Part shown: piece by piece, positions 848-42,485 of the stretch
How the letters are laid out: each line of letters opens with the position of its first letter
Numbering within the stretch: the first letter of the stretch is position 1
Source: Magnolia sinica
Lineage: Eukaryota > Streptophyta > Magnoliopsida > Magnoliales > Magnoliaceae
Direction of reading: 5' to 3'
DNA: 64,000 bases
NCBI RefSeq assembly: GCF_029962835.1
Contig: NC_080577.1
Span: 6,696,001-6,760,000 of the forward strand
Translations under genes and position numbers: made by a program
The notes under the pieces: generated by a model
What the model was told of the DNA's origin: nothing
Database searches by the model: none
Seen by the model: only the letters and a program-made list of their open reading frames with translations

Positions 848-3800
848 TTATTCTCGCTCCCACGATGCTTCTTCCTTGTTGTGATGACTCCACTGTACCT
901 TCACAAGTGGTGTAACCTTCGTACGAAGTACTTGCTCCTTACGATCGAGAATGCGCACAGGTTGCTCTTCATATGTGACATTTTCTTGAATCTCTAGCAG
1001 CTCCCATTCGATGACATAAGAATCGTTCGGCTTGTACTTTCGAAGCATGGAGAAATACATTGTGGATATTAGATAACTGAGGCGATAGGGCCAGCTTGTA
1101 TGCTACAACTCCTACTCTTTTTAGGATCTCGAAGGGTCCAATAAAACGTAGCGCGAGCTTCCCTTTCTTTCCAAAACGCATAACTCCTTTCATGGGGGAA
1201 ACTTTTATGAACACATAATCTCCCACACAAAACTCTAAGTCTCTGCGTCGATTATCTGCATAGCTCTTTTGGCGACTCTGGGCGGCACGCATACGTTCCC
1301 GAATGATGTCAATCTTCTTGGAGGTCTCTTAAATAAGTTCTAGTCCCTACAATGTCCTTTCTCCTACTTTGGTCCAACAGCTTGGTGATTTGCAGGGTCT
1401 TCCGTGTAAAGCTTCAAATGGTGTCATACCAATGCTGGCTTGGTATCTATTATTATATGCGAATTCCACCAGTAGCAGATGATCATCCCAATTTTCCTTG
1501 AAGTCGAGAATGCAGCTACGTAACATATCTTCTAAAACCTGATTTGTCCTTTCTGTTTGTTCATCAGTCTGTGGGTGAAATATTGTGCTACAATCGAGAG
1601 TAGTTCCCAAAGCTTCCTGTAGACTTGCCCAAAACCGTGATTTAAACCTGGGATCTCGGTCGGAGACGATGGATACTGGAGTACCATGAAGTTGGACGAT
1701 TTCTTTAATATCAATTTGACTCGAGTCCACTGCAGATGCAGAAATTTTTATCGGGATGAAGTGTGCGAATTTGGTTAACCTATCCACGATCACCCATACA
1801 GTGTCAAGGTGTCGACCTGTGTTTGGAAATCCAATTACGAAATCCATGGATATATGCTCCCATTTCCACTTGGGGACCGGTAACGGCTGTAAGAGTCCTG
1901 GTGGTCTTCGATGGTCTGCCTTCACTTGTTGACATGTCACACATTTAGATACGTACTCGGCGATTTTTCGCTTCATGTTGTTCCACCAGTAATGGCGCTT
2001 AACATCGTGGTACATTTTAGTCTCCCCTGGATGGATAGTGAATCTTGATCTATGAGCCTCGTCCAAAATCTCTTGCTTCAATTCAGGTTTGTTTAGAACA
2101 CATAGCCTTCTTCGAAACCTAATCCCTTCATCAGTGCCAATTTGTCATTCTGCATTCTCCTTCCGCATTCCTTCTGCTCATTTTTCTTGTAGCCAAACGT
2201 CTTCCTTTTGAGCTTCTAGAATATACCGAATCTAAGAGAAAAGTTTATCATGATCTAATCTCAATTATAAAAATTAATAAGTTAAACTTCACTATTAAAC
2301 TTAAGAAAATAAAAATAAAATTACACACTAGGGCAGGTTGTGCTATTAGGTTACTTAGATGCGCCTGAGGTTCTTCAAGCTAGAGTTGCAGATCGAAATC
2401 CTTGATGACATTTAGCATCTCCCACTCTTTGATCATTAGGCTGGCTACAAGTCTTCGTGTCTTTCTGCTTAGGGCATCGGCCACAACGTTTGCTTTTCCT
2501 AGGTGATATGAAATATCGAAATGGTAGTCTTTCAAAAATTTCATCCATCTTCTCTGACGCATATTCAATTCATTCTGATTAAAGAGATACTTTAAACTCT
2601 TATGGTCTGAATATAAGTCGAATTGTTCCCCATATAGGTAATGCCTCCAAATTTTCAAAGCAAAAACCACTGCTACTAACTCCAGATCATGCGTCGGGTA
2701 ATTTCGCTTGTGAGTCTTTAACTGTCGTGATGCGAATGCGATAGCTTTGCCTCTTTGTATAAGAACATATCCTAATCCCTGATATGACGCATTGGTATAA
2801 ACGACGAATCTTTCTCCTTTGGTCGGTAATGTCAAAACTGGGGCTGATGTCAACCGCTTCTTCAGTTCGATAAATGCCTGCTCACAATCTTAATCTCACT
2901 TAAAGTTCGTATTCTTCTTAGTTAGATTAGTTAGGGGTCTTGATATATTAGATAATCCTTCTATAAATCTTCGATAATAATTGACAAGGCCGAGAAATCT
3001 TCGCACTTCTAACACATTCGAGGGCTGCACCCATTCTAATATAGCTTCAATTTTAGCTGGATCCACAGATATCCCTTTCTCTGACACCACATGCCCTAAG
3101 AATTTTACTTCATGCTTCTAGAAGTCACATTTCGATGACTTAGCATACAATTGATTTTCCTTTAACGTTTGTAGAGCGGTCCTGAGATGTTCCTTATGCT
3201 CCTCATGAGTCTTAGAATATATAAGAATATCATCGATGAATACAATAACGAATCGATCTAAATAAGGTTTGAATACCCGATTCATAAGATCCATAAATAC
3301 TGCTAGAGCATTTGTCAATCCAAATGGCATTACCAAGAACTCATAGTGCCCGTAACGAGTCCTAAAAGTCGTCTTGTGCACGTCTTCGTCGTTTATTCTC
3401 AACTGATGGTAACCTGACCTCAAATCTATTTTAGAAAAGAACCTCGCTCCCTTAAGCTGGTCAAATAAATCTTCAATCCTAGGAAGAAGATATTTGTTCT
3501 TAATTGTTACTTTATTCAATTGACGATAATCGATACATAATCTCATAGTTCCATCCTTCTTCCTTACAAATAAGACTGGTGCTCCCCATGGCGACGTGCT
3601 TGTTATAATGAAACCCTGATCTAACAACTATTGGATCTGATCCTTTAATTCTTTTAATTCTACAGGAGCCATGCGATAAGGTGCTCTGGAAATGGGTGCA
3701 GTTCCGGGCATTAGATTGATACCGAAGTCCACATCTCTCTTTGGAGGTAACCTTGGAATGTCCTGAAAAACTTCTGGAAACTCCCTAACCACAGGTATTT

Positions 3801-4629
3801 GTTCAATCCCTTCTTCTGATTGCTCGATTCCCATAATAGCCGACAAACCAATCGGCGCTTTCCTTCTTCGTGTCCCATAAAATTTCAGTGGAGATCGTCC
3901 TTCTATGTTCAACGCAATCGTCTTCCTGAAACAATCTATCTTGGCACGATACTAGGACAACCAATTCATTCCTAAGATGACATCATATTCTCTCATAGGC
4001 ATAATTATGAGATTTGCTGGTAGTATTTTATTTTCAATTATGATGCAGCATTTTTCACATATTTGCTCTAAATTCATGGACTTACCGAGAGGGGTTGCTA
4101 CGATAATTTTCTTATCTAATCGTATGGGTGATATACCAAGTGAGCATACAAAGAAATAAGATATAAATGAGTGTGTAGCTCCTGAATCGAATAATGCTCT
4201 GGCAAGAGATGTGTAAGCCAAGATAGTACCTTCCACCACATCATTAGTAGCTTCAGCACCATGTTGAGGAGTGATATCTGCAGGTTGTGCTGGGTCCTCA
4301 TAAGCAGAAGCAGTAGTCTCATACATTTGTGCAGCATCATCTTGAGGTGGCGTTGGATCATCATAGCTTCGATTTGGATCCTCATACTCCTGAAGTTGGG
4401 TTGGATCATTTGTGAATGAAGATAGAGCGTAAACATGTCGTTGAGCTTGAGGTCGAGGCGCCTGACTTTCTGGCCTCAGTTGTTGATATTGGGGAGGCTT
4501 GACCTGTTGTCGCGATTGTTGAGGTGGTCTCGGATAAGCTTGAGGGGGTCCAGGCAGCTCGTATCGTAGATGTAGCTGTACAGGCCTCTGAGGATAAAGT
4601 TGTGCTGGTCTCACAGTTGACTGAATCAT
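848..4629 (-). pseudogene. fossil pol region (PR, RT, RNase H, integrase, chromodomain-like tail)
   Basis: Parts seen, in element order: an aspartic protease with DSGATHSF near 4160-4200; reverse transcriptase across about 2900-3910 with the FIDDILIYS active-site box; RNase H at 2380-2853, ending in VADALSRK; an integrase with an HHCC-type finger (CVTCQQ) and core at about 1347-2081; a GPF-type C-terminal module near 1000-1290; and a chromodomain-like segment at 848-1060 (VKVQW, EEASWE). It encoded the enzymes for copying and inserting the element. It is broken in several places and no longer makes a polyprotein. Confidence 0.92.
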
Positions 4630-5670
4630 TTGAGGGGGTGGTGGAGGTCGTTGATATGATGTAGACGGTGCATAATGAAGAGGCGGCCTGTAAAACGATC
4701 ATGGTGGTCCTTGATTCCCTGGATATTGATGACGAGGTGGTAGAAGACAATGGCGGGCAGGATGACCCACCTTTCCACAGTTATGGCAAGTCTCAGTGAA
4801 TTGCGTTGAAAGTTGCATAGTAGCATGACTGGGTACTGATGTTGGCATCATCTTCTGCCGCTTAGTTACTTCATGTTGTGTGAGAGATGAATGGGGCGTG
4901 GTCCTGGCTCCACTCCTCATGTCCTTCCTCGGCTCACGGTTCTTCCAATGCTCATCAAAGTCTTTTTCTATTGCGTTAGGGCGTTCCAATGCTTCTGTAT
5001 ACATTTTAATAAGAAATGGCGCCAGTCGAGTATGAATAAAAGGTTTCAGTCCCTCAACAAACTTCTACCCTTTACGAAGCTCATCCGGTATGAGAAATGT
5101 CGTAAATCGTGCCAACTCTGTAAACTTTGGATCATATTGACGCACCGTCATATCTCCTTGTTCTAATTTCATGAATTTGTAACCTTTTAAACACGCACAT
5201 AAGCTGAAAAATATTTATTTTCAAATTTTGTGCAGAATTGATCCTATGTCCACCTTTCTATTCTCGGGTTCTCCTTGGTCGTAGATTCCCACCAATGATC
5301 GGCTTCTCCTTCCAATAGAAGCCTTCCAACATATATATTATTAATTCAGCCTTTTGTTGTTCGTTATATCTCATAGCTGAGAAAATTTTCTCCATCTGCC
5401 TTTTCCAACCCTCAGCTTCACTTGGGTCAGGCCCACCTTAAACGTAGGCGGTCTTTGCCTCTTAAACTTTTTCAACAAGGACCCCGTCCCTTCAGGGGCT
5501 ACAAGTATCGCTTGAGTCTGCTCCTGAGATTAAGTTATAAGCACTTGTGTTCCCATAAATGAGGCAAATCCTTCCATCGCCTGGAGGATCTTGTCAATAA
5601 TTGCTCCTTGCATAGCTACATCGGGTAGTTGAGTCTCCGATGTGGCCCCGAAGTTCATACTTTGATCCGT
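4630..5670 (-). pseudogene. fossil gag region with CCHC zinc knuckle
   Basis: The region encodes a Gln/Pro-rich nucleocapsid part and a zinc knuckle with spacing C-X2-C-X4-H-X4-C (CHNCGKVGHPARHC) at about 4750-4800. The probable start is an ATG reading MTDQSMNFGA at 5668-5670. The reading frame is broken. Confidence 0.82.
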
Positions 5671-6394
5671 CATAGCCTATAATAAATAAAGAAAATTATG
5701 AATTTTACTGAATAATCTTAAAATTATAAGAAATTAGATGGTTCAATGTAGGCATACATGAAGATCTAAGAGAAGTTGAACTAAGATGTAGTTTAGAACT
5801 ATGTGCAGAAATTTCTGGTCATAAGGGTGCTATTCTAATTGATATTTTTGATATTCTTAGACATTATTTTAACTTCAAAAGTTTTATATAAATATATCTA
5901 TAAGTCTACTATACCCCTGTAAAATTTTATAATAGTTTGAAGCCTATAAAATTTTTAAAAATTCAAAGAATACACGCTGTCCAGATTTAAATGATTTCTG
6001 GACAGGTTTTTCTTAACTTCAAATACATACATGAAAGGTCAGTATTTTTAATTTTTTACCTATTTTTTTATAAAATTATACTTATCAAGCTTCGATTGAG
6101 TTTTTGAATCACCTCCATCGGAGTTTTACTTAAATAGTTATGATTTTTCAAAGTCAGACATTTTATATTGATTATTGCTGCCCAACTTAAGAAATAGTTA
6201 GAAAATTTTCAGAAAATTCCTAACACCTAAACTTGATTTTGTATGTTAATATACAGCCTAAATGAGATCTAAGTATTATATCATAATAGATTAAATGTCT
6301 TACATATGTATTCTAAATTTCTCATCTCCTAGTTAAGGCCGTTTAGAAAAACTTATAGTTAAATATTTATTTGAGGTCCAACGTTTAAGATCAA
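5671..6394 (-). other. untranslated leader of the gypsy element
   Basis: AT-rich, non-coding stretch between the primer site and gag. Nothing else is recognisable in it. Confidence 0.6.
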
Positions 6395-6411
6395 CCTGGC
6401 TCTGATACCAA
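6395..6411 (-). other. primer binding site for initiator tRNA-Met
   Basis: The minus strand reads TTGGTATCAGAGCCAGG, the complement of the 3' end of plant initiator tRNA-Met, three bases inside the LTR border. This fixes element polarity and the inner border of the 5' LTR. Confidence 0.93.
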
Positions 6412-6414
6412 CTT

Positions 6415-8107
6415 TGTCACGCCCCAAAATCCGGGTACCCGAATAGGGTGTCTAGGACCCGAATTCCAGACCCGTGACCTATATAAAAATAAAAATAAAA
6501 ATACAATTAAAGTATGACAATTTTATATGCATTTCATTTTTTTTTCACACCATAGTCCAATACTTTAAAATCCAAACACAAATTAAAATATCTAATTACA
6601 TAATCTGTTTTTACATCGATTCATAATTATTAAACTTAACTTGAAGTAAGAAAATCAAGCCCAAACATTACAACACTCAGAGTTCTAAAATAAAATAAAA
6701 TTTATTTTATGTACAATGACATGCCATGTGCATCTAACCACATTCCATGCTCCACTACTAATAGTAGTACCCTGCATCTTCAAAATATTCATAACCTGAA
6801 ACGGTTAAAACATAATGAGTTGACAACTCAATAGGATCACATCAATCCCAAGTTGAAAATCTTACAAATATTACCAAATTTAATCTCGATATATTAATCA
6901 AAATAAGACGAACATTGGATGTAAAATCATAGTAAATAATTTGACATTCATGAATATGGAATGAATAAATTGTTTAACATAGCTTTTTTAAAGATGCTAA
7001 GATTTGGAGTAGGCAAAACACTCATGTGTGCTAATCCTTTTAGGGGATGACCCACGGCAGAGCACCGATGTTGATCCTTTCAGGGTATGACCCTCGACAG
7101 AGCACCGGTATAACCTTTTAGGGACAAAAGCCCAGGGCAGTGCACCCGTGTGTACTGATCCTTTTAGGGAATCACTCAGGGCAGAGCACCCGTGCCGATC
7201 CTTTTGGGAATGACCCTTGGCAGAGCACCCGTGTCGTGCTGATCATTTCGGAAATGACCCTGCGCAGAGCACCTGTAAGAATCATTGCATAAAACAAATA
7301 ATTGTTCACATAAGATGCATCTAACTTACAAGGAAATATGACAGATATAATGTCTATATTCACATAATGAATATTCATTATCACCACTATATAATATTAA
7401 ATGAAAAAAATAATATTTGCATTGGTTCAAATAATAAAAAAATATTTCAATGTCTATATTATATAAGACAATTAGTTATGAATTTTTCAATGGGGAATGA
7501 TGACCTACCTGTTATGGAAAAATTGTGTGATGGGAGGAAAATAATTTGAAGCGATGCTGATTTCTACCTGTACTAACTTGGATTGATCAACTCTGAACTC
7601 GATGTGGAACCCTCATGGATACTCTCCCTTCTCCTAAGCTTTCTTTTTCTTCTCACAGATTTTCTCTATGGTTTTCTCTCGATAGCATGAGAAATAGGGT
7701 ATGAAAATAATGTTAGGTGAGTTGGTGGGTTCAGAGTTTAATGAGTGGTTTAGATTGAGAAGTGGATCCCGCCATGATGATGGCAATCATGGGTGATGGG
7801 TTCTCATCCGCAACCGTACCGCAGAGAAGTGGGAAAGAGAGAGAGAGAGTCGTGGAGGATAGGGGGGTTAGTTTGTGGGTGACGTCACTTGCTTTGCTTT
7901 CTTTTATATATACATATATATATATATATATATTAGAATGGGCCCCCACAGGATCACGTGATAAATCCATACCGTTCATTAGTTTTGCCCTTCAAAGTTA
8001 GGGCATGAGCCCAAAAATGAGGGTCATCCACAGCTCAGGTGGGCCACATCATATGCAACGGTGGGTTAACGGTGAAACCCACCGTTTAAAAGAAACAGAG
8101 TATTACA
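6415..8107 (-). repeat. complete 5' LTR (1693 bp) of the gypsy element
   Basis: It is bounded by TGTCACGCC on the left and TATTACA on the right. Beyond the part shared with 1-771 it includes an array of about five imperfect copies of a 45-60-bp unit at 7034-7280 and an AT dinucleotide run near 7904-7933. Confidence 0.92.
7034..7280. repeat. short tandem array inside the LTR
   Basis: A unit containing GATCCTTTTAGGG ... GGCAGAGCACC(C)GTG repeats about five times with small differences in length. It lies in the outer part of the LTR, so it may affect transcription signals. That role is a guess. Confidence 0.85.
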
Positions 8108-8725: not shown

Positions 8726-9055
8726 GAACTTGTGGTGGACGGCTTAACATTAGCCAATGTTCAATTAAGAAAATAATGAAAGACAATTAATGAAAACCAG
8801 ATACCGAGTTCAGTGAGCAACTTAATACTCTATAATATTGAGACCGAGTTCCTTGCTTGTTCTGAACAGAAGCTTAGTTTATAGCTCTGGGGCCATGGTT
8901 GTTCCAAGGTATTAATCAGATGGCCCATCATGGGGCAGATGCTATCCATGGTGAATTCCATCGGTTTGGATTGCTGAATCACTAGCCTTGCTCGCGCTAG
9001 CTGAAAGCCAAAGAATGCTGTATAAACTCTCTGCCCGAGCAATATTGTATGCTAT

Positions 9056-9068
9056 CTTTATATATGGG
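9056..9068 (+). promoter_or_regulatory. TATA-like element upstream of the dead OMT
   Basis: CTTTATATATGGG lies about 90 bp before the likely start codon at 9157, a usual distance for a plant core promoter. Confidence 0.4.
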
Positions 9069-9156
9069 TATGCGTGGGTGCGTTAATAGGCAGAAACGTG
9101 AGTTACACAAAAGGAAGAGGGAAGAACAAATCCGTAGTTTGAGACGTGTGCTAGAG

Positions 9157-11148
9157 ATGGCGATGGCGATGGCGGTCATGCAAGGAGATGAGGCCAATGA
9201 GGTGTTGAAAGCCCAAGCCCATATGCATGTATTTAACTTCATTAATTCCATGTCCCTCAAGTGTGCCGTTCAACTAGGCATACCAGACATCGTTCACGGC
9301 CATGGCCATCCCATGACTCTCTCCCAGCTGGTGGCCGCACTTTCGATCGCTCCTGCTAGAGCGTCTCATGTGGGCCGTATCATGCGTTTGTTGGTCCACT
9401 CGGGCTTCTTTGCCTTACAAAAAATCAACGGTGATCAAGGAGGAGATGAAGAAGGATATGTGCTGGCACCACCTTCTAGGCTCCTGTTGAAGGACACTGC
9501 GACATGCATGTCGCCGTTTTTGCTGGTGGTGCTAGATCCAGTTGTAGTAATGCCGTGGCATTTCTTGAGCACTTGGCTCGTAGGGGATGATCCAACAACA
9601 GCCTTCAAGACCGCACACGGTATAGACATGTGGGACCACATGGCGCAGAGCCCTAAGCTTCATAACTTATTTAATGAGGCCATGGCTAGCGATGCTCAGA
9701 TAGCCATGAGCATAGTTGTTAAAGAGTGCGGTCTGGTCTTCCAAGGGTTGCGATCATTGGTCGATGTCGGAGGCTGCACAGGAACTGCCACCAGAGCTAT
9801 CGCCAATGCGTTCCCACACGTCAAGTGCACCGTGTTTGATCTCCCGGCCACAAGTGATCGCGAGCGTGCCAAAGAGTAAGAACGTGGATATGGTTGGAGG
9901 GGATATGTTTGAGTCCATTCCTTGTGCGGATGCAGTTTTACTCAAGGTATACTTGTTTTACTTGCAGTTTACTATTCCATAGTGGAATGTTCCACTACAG
10001 CAAGCAATCTGAATGAGCGTCTGATATACTGACCGACTGTTGTTAGTAGTTGGGACCACTAAATCATATGTTGGAGGGCCTTATATCTAACCATTTTCAG
10101 TTGGTGGTCCCTATCAGAATGAGATTCCTAGATTTAGAAACACTTTTTAGAGTCTCCTATTCGTCCAAACAAATAGATGGTTTAAATTATAAATTTGGCC
10201 TAGGATCATAGGGTCACTGTACGTACGGTGCATGCTTTTCTGTCAATGGGTTGTTTAAGGAAATCCAATCCGTTCAAAAGGTTGACCACGTCATTTAGAA
10301 TGCGTAATGTCAAAATAGCAATGATCCAGTCATGCAATAGGGTAAACCTTGATTGATGGATCAGATGATCGGCTGCTCATTTTATTTCATTGTGTGGCCC
10401 ACTTACTGCTTGGCTTGATTTTAATTACAAGTGATATTATGATAACGACAACCTTCCCATATGGTCCGGATTTCTTGCACATATGAAACACATTGGTGGG
10501 AGAAAAATGTAGTACGGTGAGCTTAATTACCTCATCATCTCTCTTTAATCATTGCCATGTCAGAAATCACAATCAGATGATATTAGTCATCAATGGAACG
10601 AAACAACCCGTCTATCAGTCATCAATGCTCCTTCAATCGGAAGCTACGATGGCCTAGCAGCTTCTGATTTTGGATAAAGCCCACCAGATGAAAGGTCCAG
10701 ATTTCATAAACGCAAACCATGTTGAATGTCCAATGACCAAGATAACATTGGTAGCACTGGACCCTCTCTCTTCATATCATCCCATTCATCTAATTATTAA
10801 ATCATGGCCAACAAGGGGTGCTTAACAATCATGATAATGGATTACAGTAGATTGTACATGATTGGAGTGATGAAGAGTGCGTGAAGATTCTGAGACTCTG
10901 CAAGAAAGCTCTCCCTTCCAAAGAAGAGGGTGGGAAGGTAATTATACTGGACATGATCGTGAACATGAAAAGTGGTGATTACAAGTCTACTGAGGCACAA
11001 TTCTGCTTCGATCTATTAATGTTGGTTCTCTTTGGTGGTAAGGAGAGGGACGAGCAAGAATGGCAAAAGATCTTCATCGATGCTTTTCACTCACTACAAG
11101 ATTTCTCCCATCCCTGGCATGTCATCTATTACTGAGGTTTATCCATAA
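9157..11148 (+). pseudogene. type-II plant O-methyltransferase pseudogene (copy 1)
   Basis: Two-exon SAM-dependent OMT of the caffeate/isoflavone-OMT class, colinear with the intact copy at 39142. Exon 1 is 9157-9946 with donor GTATAC; exon 2 is 10848-11148. The start was chosen at 9157 (MAMAMAVMQ), which aligns with the intact copy's start; the frame is open further upstream but nothing aligns there. Three lesions are visible against the paralogue. Four extra bases at about 9846-9853, just after FDLP, shift the frame. The exon-2 Trp codon is TAG at 10848. Two bases are lost near 11083, which changes the C-terminus. The SAM motif also reads VDVGGCTG instead of VDVGGGTG. The dimerisation domain and HDWSDEE are still recognisable. 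The 3' flank (to about 11880) also matches the flank of the intact gene. Confidence 0.88.
9947..10847 (+). other. intron of OMT copy 1
   Basis: Non-coding. Its first roughly 250 bp match the introns of the other two OMT copies, as does its last roughly 200 bp before the acceptor TTACAG. The middle shows no recognisable element. Confidence 0.7.
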
Positions 11149-11889
11149 TTATTTGATGGTTTGCGGTTGTTTAGTTTGCTGCTAGTTCAAGTAATTCTTG
11201 AATTAAGAACACCTTTGGATTTATTAAGTGGTGTTTATGTATTGGGCTTGTGGTTGATGGTCCTCTATTTCTGTGCACATGTTTAATGCTAGTGTTATTC
11301 TATGAAATGGAATTTGTAGTTAGGATTGTTGGGTGATTCTACTTTCTCCCTTTTTGACATGACCAATGCATGGTGAGGCACACTTGATGGATGAACAATT
11401 TGGATTATTGTGAAATTGTTGGGGGCACAAAGGTAGCTTATGTTAGCACCATATTCAATTACAATGCAATAAAAATATTTATAGTAAATTCTAACACTAA
11501 TTAATCTAAATTCCTTTCTTATCTTTTTGTAATTTCTAATCGTAATCATCAATTTCAACAAAATATTAGAAATGATAAGATACCCCTTAGTCTTATCAAA
11601 ACCATATACATCCCGAGAGATCAGGCATAACTTAAACATATGATGTTTTAATAGCATGCTCTTAAACTCGTTGGAAAGTTAATTTAATAGGATTTCAAAT
11701 GGAACTAGTTTCACATCATTTTGTACATCATAGGTATCCCAAAACCGAGTCATAAAAAAGTGATGAAAATAATAATTAAAACTTTAACTCCATCTAAATA
11801 ATTAAAGTATATGAATAAATCTAATTAAAAGAAACTAGCATGAGTTTAAAATCACTCAACCATAAGACTCTTCATGTGGAGTACATATT
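11149..11889. other. 3' flank of OMT copy 1, duplicated with copy 2
   Basis: AT-rich, no gene. It follows the 3' flank of the intact OMT (41479-42485) with scattered indels until the shared segment ending near CACTCAACC(A/C)TAAGAC. Transcript 3' ends probably lie within the first 200 bp. Confidence 0.7.
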
Positions 11890-15315: not shown

Positions 15316-15739
15316 AGTCACTATACCAAAATTGTCATTTAGGAACGGTTTTAAGCCGTTCGTAACTTCTAAATGAGGCGTCGCGGAATGAAGGAACAAT
15401 TCAACCGTATTGGGTGCCAATTCAAATTTTAGGAACGGTTTTAAACCGCTCCGTTGCCAACAGTCAGATTTTAGGAACAATTTTAAACCCTACTCTTTTT
15501 TTCTTTTTTTAAACCTAAAGAAACTTCATTGATGGAAATCCAATGATAACATCTATTACATCCTTTTGCTGAAGCACATACATCTAAACCTCAACAGTAA
15601 GATTATTTACAAAATATAGAAAAAGAAAGCAGTAAAGACCGTCCCAACACCAAAACCAAAATTACAAATTTGAAGAAATTTCCAAAAAATCCATTAAATA
15701 AGAATTACAAAGTGGGCCCAAGCATTCATCCCAACCCAA

Positions 15740-16020
15740 TCAATCCTTTTTTTTTGGAGATTTTGAAGCTTCCTCAGACTTCTTAGGTAAGAGAACAGAG
15801 TTTATGTTTGGCAAAACACCACCACTTGAAATTGTCACACCAACTAGCAATTTCCCAAGCTCATCATTTTTGACAGCCAAAAGAACATGCTTTGGAATGA
15901 TGCGGGACTTCTTATTGTCTCTAGCAGCATTCCCAGCCAGCTTCAAAACCTCAGCTGCCAAGTACTCAAGAACAATAGCCAAATAGACAGGAGATTCATG
16001 CAAGCTTGTGCCATTAGCCT
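15740..16020 (-). pseudogene. histone H2A fragment (H2A.W-like tail) captured in the CACTA element
   Basis: The 3' exon of a plant H2A gene. The translation runs [16 protein letters not shown], then [17 protein letters not shown], then [12 protein letters not shown], and ends ASKSPKKKD. The SPKK motif near the C-terminus is typical of plant H2A.W. The N-terminal half of the histone fold (about 55 residues) is absent. A possible splice acceptor (CTATAG) lies just upstream at about 16021-16026. Two acidic-patch positions differ from normal H2A: one Glu of NDEEL is missing, and VLELAGN reads VLKLAGN. Even if translated it would not make a normal nucleosome subunit. It is most likely a transduplicated fragment, possibly transcribed. 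Confidence 0.88.
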
Positions 16021-16333
16021 ATAGTAGTTGAACGATCATTAGATAAAATACAAAATCATAGTTGTCGAAAAGTCTTATTCTCATAATACAAAAGGATTTA
16101 TGCATACCGGGGTTGGTACGATGTTTCTGTCAGCAATCTTCTAAGCATTGTAAGCATAAGATTCGGACATCTGAGTAACATTAATCAGTGCATGCTAGAG
16201 ATGCAAAGACATGACTCTTTCAGGTATGCCATAAGTTATGTATAGGAACACTTGCAACCAACTTGAAGATGCAACTAACAGGACATTTTCATTTTTCAAC
16301 TGATGGCAAGAGACACAATGATGCAATGCACCT

Positions 16334-16411
16334 CTAATCAAAGGGGTCAATTCGAGGATCATGCTCGCTTGCCACTACCATCCCCGTGCAAAGGCATGTA
16401 GGACACATGAT
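16334..16411 (-). pseudogene. captured terminal exon of a small CPTCLCTG-motif protein
   Basis: After a good acceptor (TTTGTTGCAG) the minus strand reads IMCPTCLCTGMVVASEHDP then RIDPFD and a stop. A short exon with an acceptor, a clean C-terminus and a CxxCxC motif looks like a real plant exon. I cannot name the parent gene with certainty. Confidence 0.5.
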
Positions 16412-17640
16412 CTGCAACAAATGAAAACCAACAACATAGAATTATGACAAAGCAATCCCAGCTATGTAAAACATAATGAAGAAGAAACATGTGGACTGAA
16501 TGTTAAAGATCAGTAGAATGAAGCAATGACCCAATATAAAACCTGTGCTTGAACAACACTCCATACATCTAAAAATTGTCATGTTGGGTGCACATGTCAA
16601 AATCCACATTGGCAAACAATGAATGGACATCAGAACAAAAAAAAATAAAAATAAAAAAATTGATGTCTGCAGCATGTTGGATTTTGATGTTTGCCCATTT
16701 GGGAACACAAGTTTCTCGGGGTGGGTAGTTGCATTAAAGACCATGGTGGAAATATCTTGATGGAATACCCAAGTAGCAGGGCTGTTTGGGCATCTTTGGA
16801 TAGAATCTTAAAAACTGTACATGGAATACCCTAAGGAATCGTCAACAAATGGAAAACTGCAGAATCCAACAATAAATTCATTGTTTTGTTTGGAGTGTAG
16901 TTTTCTATGGAAGATCAATAGTTGAAGGGAGAGAGTCCATCATCATCATCTAAACCTTATCACAACTAATCGGAATTGGCTACATAATCCTGCTCCACCA
17001 TTCCACTCTATTGAGGGTCAGACCTTTAGTTAGACCATAGGTCATCAAGTCTATTTTTCACTACATCAATGAAGTTTAAAGCATAACCTATCATCCATAA
17101 CTAACCGTCCTGGCTGAGAATAGAAATAACATGCCATTGGAAGCATAAAAACCTTAACATACCGAAAGATATTGAAACAATCCCTTTAAATGTTGGGGCT
17201 TCAGATGGTCTTGAACTCTGGAAAGGAAGAAAATATACACTGCCATACCAAGTACACAGAGGCAAAAGGATATCAAAATAAGCACAACTTTGAGCACACA
17301 AAGGAAAATAGCACCTGCCAAACTAAAATATACTTTGTCGATCAAGACTAGAACTCATCTTCCATCTAGTCTGATATGCAAGCAGAATCAAACTATCGGC
17401 ATGTTAAAAGAGTTCAAATGTTTAGAACAATATATTTTAAGGAATCTCAACATACACAACAAGAAAACAGAAGTGAACACACCCAAATCATCCAAATCCA
17501 ATCCAAAGGTAATTAATCCCAATGATCCCTAAAAATCAAATCATAATTCTTCTCTAACAGAACCCATGATCAAATGAAAACTAGCAAGTGCCATGAAAGA
17601 AAATAAGAAACAACTTTTCATGAGGGAGATTGAAACAGAC
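16412..17640. other. CACTA interior without recognised exons
   Basis: Non-coding, AT-rich. It may be intron sequence taken with the gene fragments; no motif is recognised. Confidence 0.5.
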
Positions 17641-17805
17641 CTTGGTAAATAGACCGTGTGAACGGCTCCGATGTCCTTCCTAGGAGAGCTTCTCTCCTCA
17701 ACCTCTCCTTCTCTTCTAATTCCTTCTCCCTCTGCCTTTGCCTCTCAGCAATCTCATCCAGCTTGGCTTTCCGCTCTGCATCTTCCTTCTTACGCCGTTC
17801 GGCCT
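17641..17805 (-). pseudogene. captured exon of translation initiation factor eIF3 subunit A
   Basis: A 55-codon open exon bounded by an acceptor CTGCAG and a donor GTCTG. Its charged helix (ERRKKEDAERKAKLDEIAE, then RQRQREKELEEKERLRREAL, then LGR) corresponds to the C-terminal coiled-coil part of plant eIF3a (AERKANLDKAFEKQRQREIE in Arabidopsis, from memory). The splice borders are kept and no stop falls inside. The rest of eIF3a is absent. It lies on the same strand as the H2A piece, so one transcript from the element's right side could include both. Confidence 0.82.
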
Positions 17806-20210
17806 CTGCAGTACAAATCAAACACTCACCATAGATCAATCAAAACATAAGATGATATATATGAGAAAAAAGTGCAAGCATGCTTTCAACAGAAGCAGCC
17901 TAATACAAATCACTCATAATAATCAGGTTTTTCTGACAAGGCATGTTTTGTTCCACAATATAATGCAGATGCATAAGAGATTAGGTTATCTGGCAAGTAA
18001 TGCAAATGCATAAGAGATTAGGTTATCTGACAAGGCATATTTTGTTCCACAACACTCTAATGCAAATGCTACCTTGATGCCTGGTAGAGATGCTGAAAGT
18101 AATGAAAACCAATAGAAAAAGGTTAGCATTTCCAAGAAATGAGCTTTTCTTGAGATATAACCATGAGAACATTGCATTAAGTTACTATTGTAAAACACAG
18201 TTTGTGAAGCAGAGCCCTCTCAAAAGGAAATTGAGGTTTTCAGTTTTAAAAAGAGATAAATACATCTTGGTTTTTGGTTGGCATGCACGAATGGAAAATC
18301 AAGTATACTTATGATGAAAGGATTGAATTCATTGTCTGGAACTTAGTTCTGGAAACTGTTGCAAATTTCATTCACTGAAATGTCCTATTCATAGCCATTT
18401 ACTTTCCTTGTCATTCAGTTAACTACCTATGCCAATAAAATCTATCAAGTTCTACCATGCATCATAATATTATGTGAATCCACCGCATCTAACTTATGTG
18501 AATCGTTGGATCATGCCACAGTCGGAAGAAAACAGATTTGATAAACACGTCACTGTTAATGAAGGGAAAGTTGGAAATGATGGAAATAAACACAAACAAA
18601 TCAAAAAGGTAAATATATTTTTTCCGTCTAGAAAAACGGACATGTTCATGACAAGATAATCGTACCTTCATAAAAACACTCATTTTTATTCTTCAAAGAA
18701 GATCCACATGCTAGACCATTATTCAAGAATGAAATTTGCAATATATTATGGTCTTAAGGGCAGGGTCCAGACAAATCAGAGATCCAAAACCAATGGTGGA
18801 CAATGGATGAATTAGATCGTCCAATCAACATGATATTCAGTACATGCCCCATCCAGTGTGGGCCGCACAACTAGGATCTACTTACGTGTACGCCACACTG
18901 AATTTGGTTGGGTTCCTACATTGATGCTTGACTAGTGTTGTATGGGAACTTTCACACATAATGCTTTCATTCCTGTTGAAATGTCAATAGCGTAAATCAT
19001 CCAAGCATTTAAAAAGGCAGGCCACCCCATAACTATCATCTAGTAAAACCAAACATATCGAATATATAGGTGGGGTCGTACCATTGGCTGTCCATTTATT
19101 TCAAAGTTGTATCCTACGTGATGAGTGGAACATCTTGGTTTTCCTCGGTATGGCCCCACGTTCAGCACCATCCGGATGATTACAAAAAGTCCCACTTTGG
19201 GTAGGAAAAGAAGGCACTGTATGTGAAATCTTCCATACAACGGGTGAAATCGCCCCTAATCCGCCAAGAGCAGTGACAGTTACAGGCTGCTGCAAAAATT
19301 AAAATAATAATAACCTCAAGATGCTACCACCACATCCGCCGTCACTAGTCCCTGCAACAACTTGTGAAACCCATCTCCACTCCATTGCCAATCTTGTGAG
19401 CTCATCTTCTTCTTTCGCAGTTGATTTCTACCACCCATCCAGCATCCATCCATTAAAATCGACCCTCTGATTGGGTGGAGTACTACCAGTCCTCTCACAC
19501 ACCCCACTGCTCCGCTCACACCAGCGACCCACAATCACAGTCGTTTGCACCCAATCTCCAGCCATCAGCAAAACACCAGAAATCATAGCAGAGCCCCACT
19601 CCAAGCGTCTTTAAAGGGCCCCCATTCTACTGATCGGAAGACGAATGACCAAGATCTCAAAGTAGAGTGGACCTTCACCCGCACCTACAACAAAAAGAGC
19701 AGAACTCTGCTCCCATCATCAGCCCACCCCTGTCACAGATCGTGAAATCGTAGGGCCTTCTTCTTCGCTGGCTTCTGTCTTCATGCCTCCATTAAATCCA
19801 GCAATCCTCTGAAATCGGCGACCCCTGCGCATCAAGTAGCCATTGAATCCGTCATCCTCTAATGTGGCTTGCTCAAACCCTAGATCTAGACCTCTGGCCA
19901 CCATCTTCTACGGCTACTCCCAGTCATGACTTCCACCCCTGCTGCGTCGAGAGCGACACACATTGTTTCCACACTTCCTTCAATGCCAGGGTTTTAAAAA
20001 CCCCCTTTCGTCAAACGACAACATTGATCTACCATTCCAATCTATGAAAAAGAGAATCACAATGAGAGCCTAATCTGACAGCTGGAGAAAAAACTTCCTT
20101 TGACAACGGTGAGGAGTTCGTGCCCGAGGTGGTGGCCCTCGATCACAAATATTGCGAAAATCCTTGCATAGGGTTTGGAAAAGGAAAAAAGGGATATAAA
20201 GTGCTGGAAA

Positions 20211-20212
<2 letters not shown>
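17806..20212. other. CACTA interior, right part
   Basis: It contains a diverged stretch with foldback-type modules (about 18770-18910) and a GC-richer block (19320-19990) that resembles a promoter or 5' UTR, with no coding evidence. Two nearly identical pieces near 17970-18015 and 18000-18070 form a small direct repeat. Confidence 0.45.

Positions 20213-20252
<40 letters not shown>
20213..20252. repeat. GA microsatellite
   Basis: About 19 AG units near the right end of the CACTA element. Confidence 0.95.
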
Positions 20253-20254
<2 letters not shown>

Positions 20255-20387
20255 CTTTTAGAAATCAAATCAGCCTTTTATTTTAGTTACTTTTTTAACC
20301 TTTGTTACGTACGGCCTAAAACCGTTTCTAAACCAAAAAAAGAGCCGTTTCTAATCATCGATTTTGGTGTAGTGAGTGTAAGTTTAA

Positions 20388-24191: not shown

Positions 24192-24196
24192 ATTTG

Positions 24197-28315: not shown

Positions 28316-29042
28316 TGACGCAGGGATGAACGTGATGAGGACGATCACCGTCTTCCTCAAGGATAACTACTCCAAATCCACGGAGCTTCTCTGGATTCCT
28401 CACAGAGACTTCTCGAATCCACGAGGAAAGAAAGCCAGAAAATAGAAATAAATTCTAATAAAATTCGAAATAGATTAATCGATGAGTAAAAACGAGTTCA
28501 CAACCCTTTAAATAGGGGTACCAAGCAATGGGAAAGAAATCAGAATCAAACTACAACTCAAACTCCTAGAATCCACGACTTACTATAAATAGTAAACTTA
28601 CTATTTATAGACGGTCGTGATGTCTACTAGTGCGTAAGGTTTTCGGCCAAAAATAGTAAGTGTCCTATTTGGCTTCACCAAACCGTTCTCCTAATTATTC
28701 TAAGCTCTTTTCATGTTAGCCAAAACTCCTAAAGCCCGACAGATGAAGAGTTATAACCAAACTAAAACTTACTATTTATAGTAAAAACGAAATTAAAACA
28801 GGGAAATGACCGTCGATCCAGGGGTATTTTGCAAATCCGGCTTGCGCAACCCGGCATAGCTGGGTTGGTTGGCTAAAGTAGCTCGTTCTACCCCAAAATC
28901 ATATATTTTACGCCTGATAACTCATTCCGGATTGTGAGATACGCCCGATCTAAGGTCTGACGGTCCGGATCACTTCTGTCGTCGACCGGGCCTTTTCTGA
29001 TCCATCTTGGCCATGTAACTGTCCGCGACCCGCTCTACATCA
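28316..29042 (-). repeat. 3' LTR (727 bp) of the CRM-like element
   Basis: Bounded by TGACGCAGGG and CTCTACATCA. The purine-rich AAGTGGAGGAGAC (minus strand) directly precedes it and is the likely polypurine tract. Confidence 0.93.
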
Positions 29043-32000
29043 GTCTCCTCCACTTCAAAAGAACTCATCCTCGAGTTCTCGTCATGCTCTGGTTCATGAT
29101 ACTCGGTCAGGTTCGCGACATTAAAAGTCTGTGAGATTGCCATGTCATTTGGAAGATCAACAACATAAGCGTTGTCATTGATCTTTCGGATGATTGGTAC
29201 CGGTCCAATCTTCTTATTTTTCAACTTGTTGTATGTTCCGGTCGAAAATCTCTCTTTGCGCAGATGGACCATAACGCGGTCGCCCACCTCGAACACTTTT
29301 TGTCGCCGATGCTTGTCCGCTTGTTCTTTGTACTTCTCGTTCGAGACATGTAGCTTGGTCTGCACTTCTACATGGATGCTCATGATCTTTTCTGTCATAT
29401 GTTCTGCTGCAATGCTCGTGCCTGAGTGCTTGGGCAGAGGGACCAAGTCAAGTGTGTGGCGAGGCACTCGTCCGTAAATAATCTGGAACGGTGATCTCCC
29501 TGTCGAGCGGTTCACCATGTTGTTGAATGCAAACTCTGCTTGAGACAAGGCCAAATCCCACTACTTTGGTTTTTCTCCTGAAATACAGCGAAGGAGGTTT
29601 CCCAACGTGTGATTCACAACTTCGGTCTGCCCATCAGTCTGTGGGTGGTAAGCACTGTTGAATTGAAGTTGTGTATCGAATCAATTCCATAAAGTCCACC
29701 AAAAGTGGCTAATGAATTTCGTGTCACGATTGAAAGTAATGGTCTTGGGGACCCCGTGTAGCCGTATGACCTCCCTGAAAAATAAATTCACCACGTGTGT
29801 TGCATCGAGGGTCTTCTTACATGGGATAAAGTGCGTCATCTTAGAGAAACGATCTACCACCACGAACACCGAATCCATGCCGCGTTGTGTTCGTGGGAGA
29901 CCAAGCACGAAGTCCATTGATAAATCCTCTCAAGGACCATTAGGCACAGGTAATAGGGTGTAGAGGCCTGTATTCTGAGATTGCCCCTTGGAGGTCTGAC
30001 AAACATGGCAACGTTGTACGGCTTTTCCCACATCACGTACTAATTGCGGCTAGTAATACCGCTCTTCCACAAGAGCTCGCGTCTTGTCTCGCCCCAGGTG
30101 TCCACCGAGGCCACCTCCATGTAGTTCCTGAATAATCTGCTCCCTTAGAGAACTTTGGGGGATGCACAATCGATTCCCTTTGAAGAGAAAATCGTCCTGT
30201 GTATGAAGGTCACTGGGGTAACCTTCTTGGCACTTCATCCAAGAATCTTTGAAGTCCCCATCCTCGGCATACAGCTCCTTGAGACAGTCGAAGCCGACCA
30301 CCTCGTTGCTCATCGTAACAAGTAGTGATGCACGACGGCTAAGTGCATCAGCCACCTTCTTCTGATGCCCTGACTTGTGCTTCAGAACGAACGTAAATTC
30401 CTATAAAAAATGCAACCCATCTAGCATGCACATGATTCACGTTAGTCTGACTATTAATAAACTTTAATACTTGATGGTCAATGTACAAAACAAACTCTCT
30501 TTGAATCAGATAATGCCGCCAATGTCGCAGCGCCTGAACAACTGCGTACAACTCAAGCTCTTAGTCGACCACTTCTTTCGGGCTTCGCTGAGCTTCTCGC
30601 TGTAGAAGGCTACCGGCCAGCCTTCTTGTGATAATACTCCTCTAATTTCGATGTACGAAGCGTCACACCCAACCTCAAACAATTTGTCGAAATTAGAAAG
30701 CACCAAAACCGGTGTTGTAGACAAACGATGCTTGATCTCATGAAAGCTCTTGTCAGCTTTATCAATCCACTGGAACAGTCCTTTTTTCATGCAATTTGTT
30801 ATAGGCGCAACTATGGTGCTAAAATCTCACACAAATCGATGATAGAAAGTTGTCAACCAGTGAAAACTCCTCACCTCATGAATATTTATCGGGATCGGTC
30901 ATTCCCTAATAGCTCGCACCTTTTCATCGTCCACACGAATGCCTGTGGACGTTACAACAAATCCTAGAAACAACAAGCTGTCAGTTAAAACACTACACTT
31001 CTTCAAATTGAAGTACAACTGGTTAATTTGTAAGACCTGCAGCACCTACCTGAGATGTTTCCTATGCTCCGCCTCATCTTGGCTATATATCAATATGTCA
31101 TCAAAATATACTACCACAAATCGGCCAGTGAACGGTTTTAGAACTTGATTCATCAAACGCATAAAAGTACTTGGTGCGTTTGATAAGCCGAAGGGCATGA
31201 CCAGCCACTCATACAACCCTTCCTTTGTCTTGAATGTCGTTTTTCACTCATCACTGGGTCGAATACGAATCTGATGGTACCCGCTCCTTAGATCTAGTTT
31301 AGAGAACACATTGGCTCCTTCTAACATATCGAGCATGTCGTCCAACCGTGGTATTGGGAATCGATATTTAATGGTAATTTTGTTGATTGCCCGACTGTCG
31401 ACACACATGCGCGAGCTTTCATCTTTTTTTGGCGTTAATAATGCTGGTACGGCACATGGGCTCATGCTCTCTCTCAAGAGACCCTTACGGATCAATTCCT
31501 CCACTTGCCCCTGAAGTATCTCACACTCCTTCGGACTCATCCGATAATAAGGGCGGTCGGTTGGGCAGGCTAGCCCTAGAGACGAGGTCTATGTAATATT
31601 GGATGTCCCTCATGGGGGCCAATCCATCAGGTAAATCCTCAGGCCAAACTTCTTTGAATTCGTTTAGCAACAGTCTTAAACTTGGAGGGATGTTTGAGGG
31701 TTCCTCTTCCTCGCACTTCACCACTACAGCGTATACCTCGCCGGTTTCCTTGGATTCCTCCATAAAATTCCGAATGGTCAAGAGGGAACTCCCCTCCACT
31801 TTATAAGCTTCAAGGTGGTTCTCTGGTACCATAGGGGCAAGGATTATTTTTCGATTATCCTTGACGAATACGTAAACATTATCTCGTCCCCTATAGGTCG
31901 CATCACGGTCCGACTGCCAGGGTCGACCGAGTAATATATGACAAGCTTCCATATCGACCACGTCACAAAGTATTTGATCCTTATAATTTTTGCTAATTGA

Positions 32001-32156
32001 AAATGAGATAGTGCATTGTTCAGTTACCTTGGTCTCATTCACCTTTTTTATCCAGCCGATTGAGTACGGGGAAGGATGTTTTATCGTTGGTAGCTGCAAC
32101 TTGTCCACCATCACTCTCGAGATGATATTCTCGCTACTATCACTGTCTATGATCAC
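28970..32156 (-). pseudogene. fossil pol region of the CRM-like element
   Basis: Parts, in element order: a protease-like segment at about 31800-32156 (ILLGRPWQ box); reverse transcriptase at about 30800-31540 ([15 protein letters not shown]); RNase H at about 30340-30790, ending MADALSRR; an integrase zinc-finger segment and core at 29681-30300 ([21 protein letters not shown]); and an integrase C-terminus at 28970-29554 with INDNAYVVDLP and FNVANL. The open frame continues about 70 bases into the 3' LTR. Several breaks separate these parts. Confidence 0.9.
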
Positions 32157-32389
32157 ATCACAGACCTTTCCGTTGATAGTGCACCGAGTACGAAATATAT
32201 TGTGTCGTTGTGCATGTAATTCCTTTCATGGGGCATACAGTAATCGCCTCACAACTAGAAATTCGCCACGATCCTCACCCGTCATTTCATCACCACCTGC
32301 TATTTCTTCAGTGATTTGTTCATGTTCATCAAAGCGATGGTCTTCTTCTACAACCTCATCTTCAGTGCCCCCTTCGTTTATAGTCAAGT

Positions 32390-33560
32390 GTGCTGCGGGA
32401 CGTTGAGGACAAGTGTTTGATTAGTGGCCTGTTTGGCCACAGCGGTAACAATTGTTCTACCTTGGCCAAGCATAAGGATTTGGAATCCTACTCGGACCCG
32501 CTGTTGTGGGTGCTGCACGTTGAGGTCTGGATGAGCCGCTCCCTGTATCACAGTTTGCCGTTGTACGAAGTTGAGGTACTGGGTTTTTTCCTCGTGGCAG
32601 CACTGGATCCTGCGTGGGACCCGTCATGGGGGGTCGAGTTGAAGGATATGGACGAGCAGGAGCTCTTACAAGTTGTGTTTCTGCCCTACACACCAATTGA
32701 ACTGCTTCATCCACAGTCCCGACTGGGTACATCTGAACTCGGTCCTGAATTGTCGGTCGCAACCCACCTATAAAACATGTCACCTTCTGTGACTTAGATT
32801 CTGACAGATCGTTTCGTGTAGCCAGCCGTTGGAATTCTTCAGTGTAATCTGTGACAGTTCGATTTCCTTGTCTGCAATTTTGATATTGCTGGAATAATAT
32901 CTGCTCATAATCACTGGGGAGAAATCGAGATCAAAGAAGACGTCTCATCCGTGACCATGATGAGATGGGCGCCTTGTTCTGGCGGGCTCATGAGAGTTGT
33001 AATTGTTCTCACCATGCAGAAGCAGCAGATTTTAATTTAAACGCTACCAATTTCACCCTTTTATAATCTGGCACATCCATGTAATCAAAATATCTCTCTA
33101 CTTCGGCTAGCCAATCGAGAAAATCTTCTATACGTAATAAACCGTTAAAACTAGGAAGTTCAGCCTTACCTCGATAGTCTCTTTCAGCACGATCTAGATG
33201 ATCACCTCCATGGATTGGTCGTCGAGCAAAACCCTCATTAAGGTCCTCGTCGCTAGAACTTGAATCATCTGGTGTAGCCCTACGGTTTGCCACTGGTAGT
33301 GCTCTATGAAAATCAGGGTTGCGTCGTACAGCAACCATGGGTGGTGAAGCCACCATGGGTGGGGGAGCAACCAAAGGTGGTGGAGCACCGCCTAGGGCTC
33401 GGGGCGAGAGTAGCGCATCCGCAAGACGGTCGAGAGTTGCCTGCAGCACTTGCATGGTCAACTGACTCTCCCGGTGGAAAGCTTTCATTCTTTCCAAAAG
33501 ATAACGAATCCCTGGATCACCGTCCACAGGATTTTGATTCATACCTTCATTGTTTGCCAT
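32390..33560 (-). pseudogene. fossil gag region of the CRM-like element
   Basis: The start is at 33558-33560 ([14 protein letters not shown]), followed by a low-complexity PPP-rich stretch and the conserved gag core ([20 protein letters not shown], then [11 protein letters not shown]). A zinc knuckle of the form CYRCGQTGH lies near 32430-32460. Broken. Confidence 0.85.
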
Positions 33561-33575
33561 CGGCCCGAGGGGAAT

Positions 33576-33592
33576 CCTCGCTTTGATACCAA
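33576..33592 (-). other. primer binding site
   Basis: The minus strand reads TTGGTATCAAAGCGAGG directly inside the 5' LTR. It resembles the initiator tRNA-Met complement with mismatches. Confidence 0.8.
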
Positions 33593-33593
33593 T

Positions 33594-34509
33594 TGACGCA
33601 GGGATGAACGTGATGAGGACGATCACCGTCTTCCTTAAGGATAACAACTCCGAATCCACGGAGCTTCTCTGGACTCCTCACAGAGACTTCTCGTATCCAC
33701 GAGGAAAGAAAGCAAGAAAATAGAAATAAATTCTAATAAAATTTGAAATAGATTAATTGATGAATAAAAACGAGTTCACAACCCTTTAAATAGGGGTACC
33801 AAGCAATGGGAAAGAAATCAGAATCAAACTACAACTCAAACTCCTAAAATCCGTGCTTACTATAAATAGTAAACTTACTATTTATAGACGGACGTCATGT
33901 CTACTAGTGCGCAAGGTTTTCGGCCAAAAATAGTAAGTGTCCTATTTGGCTTCACCAAACCGTTCTCCTAATTATTCTAAGCTCTTTTCACGTTGGGCGC
34001 AACTCCTAAAGCCCGACGGATGAAGAGTAATAATCAAACTAAAACTTATTATTTATAGTAAAAACAAAATTAAAATAGGGAAACGACCATCAATCCAGGG
34101 GTTTTTCGAAATTCCGGGCTATAGTAAGTTTACTATTTGGCTTCACCAAACCGTTCTCCTAATTATTCTAAGCTCTTTTCACGTTGGGCGCAACTCCTAA
34201 AGCCCGACGGATGAAGAATTATAATCAAACTAAAACTTACTATTTATAGTAAAAACGAAATTAAAACAGGGAAACGACCGTCAATCCAGGGGTTTTTCAG
34301 AATTCTGGGCTGCGCAACCCGACGTAGCGGGTTGGTTGGCTTCAATAGCTCGTTCTACCCCAAAATCATATATTTTACGTCAGATAACTCATTCCGGATT
34401 GCAAGATACGCCCGATTTAAGGTTCGATGGTCTGGATCATTTCTGTCGTCGACCGGGCCTTTTCTGATCCATCTTGGCCAAGTAACTGTCCGCGACCCGC
34501 TCTACATCA
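33594..34509 (-). repeat. 5' LTR (916 bp) with an internal 191-bp tandem duplication
   Basis: Same ends as the other LTR but 189 bp longer. The stretch beginning CTATTTGGCTTCACC at 33942 recurs at 34133, a period of 191 bp. This explains the length difference. Confidence 0.92.
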
Positions 34510-39093: not shown

Positions 39094-39141
39094 AGGGGAT
39101 GTGGCTTGGTGGAGCTTCAAGCGTGAGTGAGAGAGAGAGAG

Positions 39142-41478: not shown

Positions 41479-42485
41479 TTATTTGATGGTTTGCAATGTT
41501 TAGCTTGTTGCTAGTTCAGGTAATTCTAGAAATAAGAACTCCTTTGGATTTATTAAATGGTATCTATGTATTGGGTTTTCGAATCATGTTCCTTTATGTT
41601 TGTGTACCTGTTTAATGCTCGTGTTATTTTAAGAAATGGAATGTGTGTTTGTGATTGTTGAATGATTTTTCTTTGTTTTTTTCTTTTTTTCTGTTTTTGA
41701 CATAGCACATGCATGGTGAGGCTCATTAGATGAAAGTTTAAACTATTGTGATCTGTATAAGTGTTGCTAATCATGGTGCTTCTAATCAAAGGTTACAAGA
41801 GTGGTTTATGTTAACACCATATCTAATTATAATGCAATAACAGTATTTATAATAAATCCTAATACTAACTAATCTAAATCATTCATTATCTTTCATAACT
41901 TCTGAGGCCCTCTCTTCTCAAGTCGAGCAAATGCTGAAATAGGTCTCTCTTGTTTTGTGCCTCTTCTTTCTATTCTTCTTTTTGTGCATAGAGCTAAATG
42001 ACAGGGGAGCTCTTCCTTTTTTGTGGGGCCCACCCAAAATGTGTTGGATGTAGAGCGCACTAGTTTCCCCTTTAATAAAATTAAGACCGGAGATTTCCAC
42101 CTCTAATTAAAAAAAAAAAAAAAAAAAAAAAACAAACAAACAAAAAAACTTGTGATAGTTAACTATCAAATTTAACAAAATTTGGAAAATGATAAAATGC
42201 CCGCTCAATCTTATCAAAAACCATACACTGCCTCATAAATGGGGTATAACTTGCTCACATAATATCCAGTTTGAATGGTCTCGGGCTAGTTGGAAAATTA
42301 ACTTAATAGGCTTTGAAACAGACTAATTTCATATTGTTTTATACATCGTATGATATTTCAAAAGCGAGTCATAAAAAATATGGCAGAATCAATAATTAAA
42401 ACTTCAACTCTAAATAACTAAAAGGTATGAGAAAATCTAAAATAAACTAGTATGAATCGAAAATCACTCAACCCTAAGACACTTT
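41479..42485. other. 3' flank of the intact OMT
   Basis: No gene. It matches the flank of the dead copy (11149-11880). A private block (about 41890-42150) includes an A-run of about 28 bases at 42106-42132, possibly a short retroposon tail. Confidence 0.6.

Follow-up and report, generated by a model that had tools for sequence, protein, structure and literature searches.

Among described transposons, Tgm-Express1 of soybean is the closest to the element that we report here. According to the part of the source drawn on here (PMC1947982), it is a CACTA element of 5.7 kb at the wp allele that holds fragments of several unrelated host genes (UP, CDC2, FPK, M and CS) as exons and introns. It sits in an intron of F3H, and its captured cargo has been shown to be spliced into chimeric RNAs (PMC1947982). 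Our element, a CACTA element of 5.06 kb, lies in a 64,000-nucleotide stretch of the Magnolia sinica genome (C5:6696001-6760000, hereafter the window, whose positions are used throughout for the element). It likewise holds several unrelated host fragments as exons and introns, namely a piece of a histone H2A gene, a probable piece of eIF3a and a third piece. It belongs to a large family of transposons in Magnolia that shuffle genes, a kind of element that is already known.

The study associated with the Pack-CACTA elements of Arabidopsis and maize is said to be that of Catoni et al. from 2019. In the portions of two sources that concern gene capture, two nearby related elements move as one and include the DNA between them (PMC8903248, PMC13317346), and this model, as given there for Pack-CACTA elements, fits the hybrid structure of the Magnolia element. 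However, the Magnolia family differs from these elements in having one H2A piece beside the left end in many copies with differing interiors. CACTA elements of Chenopodium also hold host gene fragments near one end but, unlike the Magnolia element, hold transposase-associated domains as well (PMC8978399, in part). The same portion of that source raises the idea that captured fragments serve as camouflage against silencing, and it mentions a transposase of Magnolia ashei, not the H2A-linked family of Magnolia sinica. Among the titles and opening abstracts on Pack-CACTA elements, on gene capture by CACTA elements, on CACTA elements in Magnolia or with histone H2A and on the orientation of gene fragments in Helitrons, we found none that describes this family. 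Helitrons are rolling-circle transposons without inverted ends or target duplication and constitute a superfamily different from CACTA. A likeness to the Magnolia family nevertheless exists in maize, where Helitrons are described, in the part of the source cited, as having gathered several gene fragments stepwise within related elements (PMC3288121).

The element and its empty site

Four of the features by which the CACTA superfamily is generally defined are found at 15319-20374: inverted ends that start with CACTA, a 3-bp target duplication, multiple subterminal repeats, and ends that are repeated in the genome (Table 1). The subterminal repeat TTTAGGAACGGTTTTAAACCG has four matches in the window at up to three mismatches, every one within the element, and this number was reached in none of 100 shuffles. 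A search with the joined flanks showed that C5:6694039-6694388 bridges the insertion junction at 89%, and 37 more rows bridge it at 70-79%. At this locus, L038 (C5:6694000-6694720), the left flank aligns up to 15318 (87% over 305 columns) and the right flank from 20375 (93% over 72 columns and 91% over 218), with one AGT between them. Because the AGT of this empty site is single, the ends of the element are exact to the base. L038 is a paralogous copy of the insertion flank that lies 17 kb upstream and is unfilled, and on the simplest reading, the alignments suggest that the insertion was later than the duplication of the flank. Two O-methyltransferase-like genes, recognised by eye, occur at 9001-11700 and 39127-41674; they are duplicated approximately 30 kb apart, with matched stretches at 80-89%, and the element lies between them.

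The initial annotation had read this locus as a CACTA element with AGT duplications and subterminal repeats, in which gene fragments had been captured on one strand. The ends, the shuffles and the empty site confirm the first part exactly, and the Pfam matches and the genomic relatives bear out the second. That annotation had also named the case that would count against it, an ordinary gene at the same place. Such a gene, lying between chance CACTA-like motifs, would account for the exon-like pieces with splice-like borders; however, it is contradicted by the empty site and by the repeated copies of the family, and we give it practically no credence.

The absence of a transposase, as claimed initially, agrees with a six-frame Pfam search of the element, in which no transposase domain was found at E<=0.05; the plus frames gave nothing and the minus frames only two H2A models. 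A further feature of the CACTA superfamily is mobilisation by an enzyme of the Transposase_21 type. The genome holds at least 150 matches to the transposase family PF02992 (150 of 1,669 candidates scored), many with open frames, and none is tied to the ends of this element. A supply of transposase in trans is plausible. The element has no transposase of its own, it has host-gene fragments inside its ends, these fragments come from more than one locus, and its relatives are repeated, all of which are features of the Pack-CACTA (Pack-TYPE) class. We consider it very probably a non-autonomous Pack-CACTA hybrid, for whose movement other places in the genome supply the CACTA transposase. Movement would then occur in trans, and the cargo would be at most passively transcribed or silenced.

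Table 1. Features of the CACTA element, in window positions.
Feature	Position	Strand	Remarks
CACTA element	15319-20374		5,056 bp; inverted ends, subterminal repeats, AGT target duplications
AGT target-site duplication, left copy	15316-15318		single AGT in empty site L038
AGT target-site duplication, right copy	20375-20377		single AGT in empty site L038
Left terminal inverted repeat	15319-15332	plus	CACTATACCAAAAT
Right terminal inverted repeat	20361-20374	minus	CACTACACCAAAAT
Left subterminal repeats	15338-15358, 15428-15448, 15470-15490	plus	
Right subterminal repeat copy	20312-20332	minus	
Left block	15319-16766	plus	element 1-1448; common wholly or partly to at least 17 other loci
H2A.W-type fragment	15740-15993	minus	last part of the coding frame, starting at codon P of APVYL and including the stop
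Fused non-H2A codons	15994-16018	minus	in frame upstream of the H2A piece, behind putative acceptor AG
Third piece	16195-16374	minus	59-aa open frame; relatives with internal TAA
Filler	16767-16789		23 bp between left and middle blocks
Middle block	16790-18571	minus	94-95% identical to C3:121685090-121686973
Probable eIF3a fragment	17651-17887	minus	C-terminal exon part 17651-17805 with native acceptor; intron remnant 17806-17887
High-copy repeat piece	17937-18571		635 bp; ends at 18571, where L009 and L028 run on
Right block	18572-20374	plus	has relatives of its own, another set of CACTA right ends
(AG)20 microsatellite	20213-20252		

The blocks and their relatives

The left, middle and right blocks each have different genomic relatives. 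In the relatives of the left block, the main rows are 86-93% identical (best 40 of 3,736 candidates scored), and 16 of the 17 include the H2A DNA; L025 is without it and matches only from element position 671. In L025, the right end of the window's element also has a copy (1682-1739), which stands just left of this H2A-less piece (2437-3204), in reversed order. The DNA beside the H2A piece, 16019-16766, occurs at 23 other loci at 87-94%, together with three rows at 70% (all 27 candidates scored). The left-end pattern of the family, defined as 35 places with up to three mismatches, was found at 362 places genome-wide, against none for the reversed control. One relative, L015, is complete, with a length of 4,514 bp and TCT on both sides. 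The copies diverge from the left block at different points and their interiors have co-linear patches in common, as expected of internal deletion and recombination of longer parents. A conserved internal AATTTGGTGTAGTG, with AGT or ACT after it, is present in L012, L014, L015, L017 (as one variant), L018 and L022, and resembles an old nested CACTA end. Such sites were tried as right ends in six relatives and rejected, as homology continues beyond them.

The H2A exon named in the initial annotation was verified by its matches to HTA6, an H2A.W protein (E 9.8e-35), and to PF16211 (9.7e-18). Its frame ends in KSPKKKD, the start of H2A is not present in the element, and homology of the 3′ untranslated region (3′ UTR) to L033 extends to about 15586. 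The fused codons upstream are found in 18 of 20 rows, with small gaps in some copies, and not in L033 or L035. In L033 (C16:58392500-58394000), a long GA repeat precedes an H2A.W-type frame that has no intron and is nearly complete; over 251 aligned coding positions, the H2A piece shares 94.4% identity with this frame, in addition to 21 gapped columns. It is the nearest gene-like H2A frame among those read and may be a gene, a pseudogene or a retrocopy; because of an in-frame TAG, it was rejected as a working parent. L034 and L035 were rejected as parent genes because both adjoin CACTA subterminal repeats. The proposed search for parent loci thus yielded gene-like counterparts, L033 for H2A and L036 (below) probably for eIF3a, with L033 not a working parent. 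Moreover, the H2A piece was not collected by this element itself, as had been supposed, since it is cargo common to the family, with its adjoining DNA at 23 other loci. For the H2A frame, the singleton changes of 17 rows revealed no purifying selection (dN/dS about 0.79, p = 0.36; L022, L025, L033 and L035 left out of 21); they comprise 31 synonymous, 57 nonsynonymous and 4 stop changes, compared with 26.9, 62.8 and 2.3 expected.

The third gene of the initial annotation was represented by a short terminal exon, which probably corresponds to the frame 16195-16374. The frame is open here, but an internal TAA occurs in all nine other full-length matches, and no donor gene was found: its 24 rows at 20 loci are all among the relatives of 16019-16766, and all 20 loci belong to the transposon family. 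Pfam and PDB searches with this piece returned nothing useful.

The middle block leads to a different part of the genome. L009 and L028 continue together beyond 18571, and the severing of the high-copy repeat at this position indicates that the block was cut out of a longer genomic stretch. Within it, 17651-17838 recurs at no fewer than seven other loci (94-98%) and 17416-17653 at no fewer than five (90-93%), in both cases among the best 40 of 3,086 candidates scored. This recurrence of several sub-pieces one at a time, and the fact that the block forms an alignment unit of its own, are consistent with a separate mobile element, 16790-18571, that entered a CACTA element already bearing H2A. 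However, its edges by eye show no terminal repeats or target duplication, on the right it breaks off within a high-copy repeat that runs on in L009 and L028, and no locus among the scored rows combines the left block with the right one in the order seen here. We regard a separate insertion as distinctly improbable.

The gene fragment in the middle block aligns along 237 columns, at 82% identity, with L036 on C1, whose exon has a 192-aa open frame that runs past the edge of the fragment. This frame matches a sequence that we take to be the C-terminus of Arabidopsis eIF3a, with 44% identity across 140 columns (E 1e-13). The cargo is probably an eIF3a fragment, as L036 suggests, and the name follows that presumed C-terminus. 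Searches of PDB and Pfam with the piece did not support the name, and a search for the PCI domain (22 rows) found none near C1:69.64 Mb, which either counts against eIF3a or reflects the splitting of exons. The 6 kb upstream of the L036 exon contain retrotransposon-like frames, recognised by eye. Because the gene-like exon of L036 runs on, the donor site of the fragment is not native; thus, of the two splice borders assigned to an eIF3a exon in the initial annotation, only the acceptor is native. The locus C3:121685090-121686973 was rejected as an intact eIF3a gene, because a reading by eye of the 50 kb around it (plus-strand frames of at least 80 aa) found other genes and, of eIF3a, nothing beyond this fragment. 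Since the fragment stands there already broken and in the same surroundings as in the element, the eIF3a cargo is second-hand, and the idea that the element collected it from a gene is not upheld.

The right end is reached by at least 15 other rows, 13 of them with more than 300 bases, at 77-92% (best 40 of 126 candidates scored). The segment 18775-20374 is 82% identical to C3:83475957-83477542, and the left-end pattern also occurs at C3:83467651, so that this relative, judging from the two matches, may be an element of 9.9 kb; no long transposase-like frame was seen by eye in the inspected part of it. In L010, two copies of CACTA right ends stand in succession, at 3903-4559 and at 5958-7543, which are 88% and 82% identical, respectively, to the right end of the window's element.

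These cargo data bear on two functional alternatives. In the first, the element is a domesticated chimeric gene: transcription would start from a promoter in the right end, the RNA would be spliced and would terminate with the last exon and 3′ UTR of H2A, and the plant would make use of the product. The H2A piece is indeed fused in frame, the homology of its 3′ UTR is kept, and the identified pieces lie on one strand; however, the test for purifying selection on the H2A frame was negative, the element lacks the histone start and has a non-native donor site in its eIF3a piece, and other copies have stops and frame changes. A domesticated gene is therefore, in our estimation, extremely improbable. 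In the second, the family gives rise to small RNAs, and these silence genes of the H2A.W type and eIF3a. Plant transposons are well-known targets of small RNAs, H2A-linked DNA is present at 23 other loci, and the H2A piece is 94.4% identical to L033. Nevertheless, L033 has the in-frame stop and the gapped columns given above, and the eIF3a piece has just 82% identity to L036, and we judge silencing of this kind improbable.

The window contains other repeats. Gypsy-type retrotransposon frames were recognised by eye at 1350-5064 and 28973-33677, and LTR-like direct repeats lie at 1-300 and 7344-7643 (98%), as well as at 24193, 28316 and 33594. LINE-type frames for an endonuclease and a reverse transcriptase, again by eye, lie on the plus strand at 54627-60822, and a 191-bp tandem duplication with 94% matches at 33930-34311.

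Formation of the hybrid

According to the reading that we prefer, the left end and its H2A cargo would come from one amplified lineage, the right end would derive from a different set of CACTA right ends, and host DNA with an already broken eIF3a-like fragment lies between them. Most likely, two neighbouring related elements and the intervening DNA were mobilised as one unit; alternatively, template switching during the repair of a gap may have joined the parts. The hybrid would then have inserted at an AGT site between the two O-methyltransferase-like genes. The structure of the element, with the left end of one lineage, right-end DNA of another and unrelated DNA between them, fits what the two-element model predicts.

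Several observations weigh against this Pack-CACTA hybrid reading. The two-element model predicts two neighbouring CACTA ends, yet no match of the right-end type was found in the 50 kb around C3:121685090-121686973; a single match of the left-end type, with one mismatch, lies there, approximately 7 kb off and with its orientation opposite to that of the block. Because no pair of ends flanks this locus, the route by which the hybrid formed is one that we infer. Both ends with matching flanks were found in one (L015) of the 17 H2A-family loci fetched, and a left end of the family type was recognised in 11 of them. L021 (7,421 bp) has both ends, but its flanks are TCA and CCA, and the flanks of L011, which also has both ends, do not match. 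An autonomous element bearing these ends was not traced. Among the H2A-frame variants present in at least two of the 17 copies, 4 are synonymous, 25 are nonsynonymous and none is a stop. In addition, the target duplication is 3 nt here, whereas the part of PMC8903248 drawn on here gives 5-nt duplications for rice and maize CACTA elements.

Orientation of the captured cargo

Captured pieces of other genes accompany the H2A piece in several relatives. L021 carries a 42-aa piece of RPAC1 (E 7.9e-16) and a match to CNOT9/Rcd1 (E 5.5e-8) whose 32.9 bits are below the curated cut-off of 37.7. L016 carries a piece of enolase (4.3e-16), and a ‘PDS5-like’ identity that was considered for this relative was unsupported. 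The MINDY deubiquitinase match of L012 (2.1e-6) is just over its cut-off (27.6 versus 27). L013 and L024 have H2A only, and L023 has H2A and a leucine-rich repeat (LRR) match on the H2A strand that falls below threshold (20.0 of 20.6 bits) and was left uncounted.

All five named cargo pieces, eIF3a included, have the same strand as H2A, for which p is 0.031 in a one-sided and 0.0625 in a two-sided test. On the opposite strand, no Pfam family was found at E<=0.05 in any of the seven elements scanned, out of 18 (the window's element and 17 relatives); L012, L013, L023 and L024 were scanned over 4,980 bp only. The right ends of L012, L013, L016, L023 and L024 were not located, and the scanned DNA may extend outside these elements. 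RPAC1 was picked by eye from a frame list of both strands and then tested, and eIF3a came from the initial annotation, so that neither derives from the strand scan; by the two-strand Pfam scan alone, three of three cargo pieces beside H2A lie on the H2A strand. The one-strand pattern, noticed after the fact in few cases, is suggestive only and serves as a lead.

A possible cause of the pattern is that the H2A-linked family captures or retains its cargo in a single orientation. Transcription from the right end and the H2A-derived 3′ end would together act as an exon trap, which would filter the cargo for sense, splice-compatible pieces. We consider this doubtful, and we lowered our estimate slightly on checking, because the strand-blind scan yields just three of the five cases.

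The building of multi-gene chimeras by a plant transposon family is cleanly illustrated by this element, with its multiplied histone piece, its eIF3a-like fragment captured at second hand, its hybrid ends and an empty site that is exact to the base. Should the one-strand pattern hold true in a full survey, transcription-based filtering of Pack-TYPE cargo would become directly testable.

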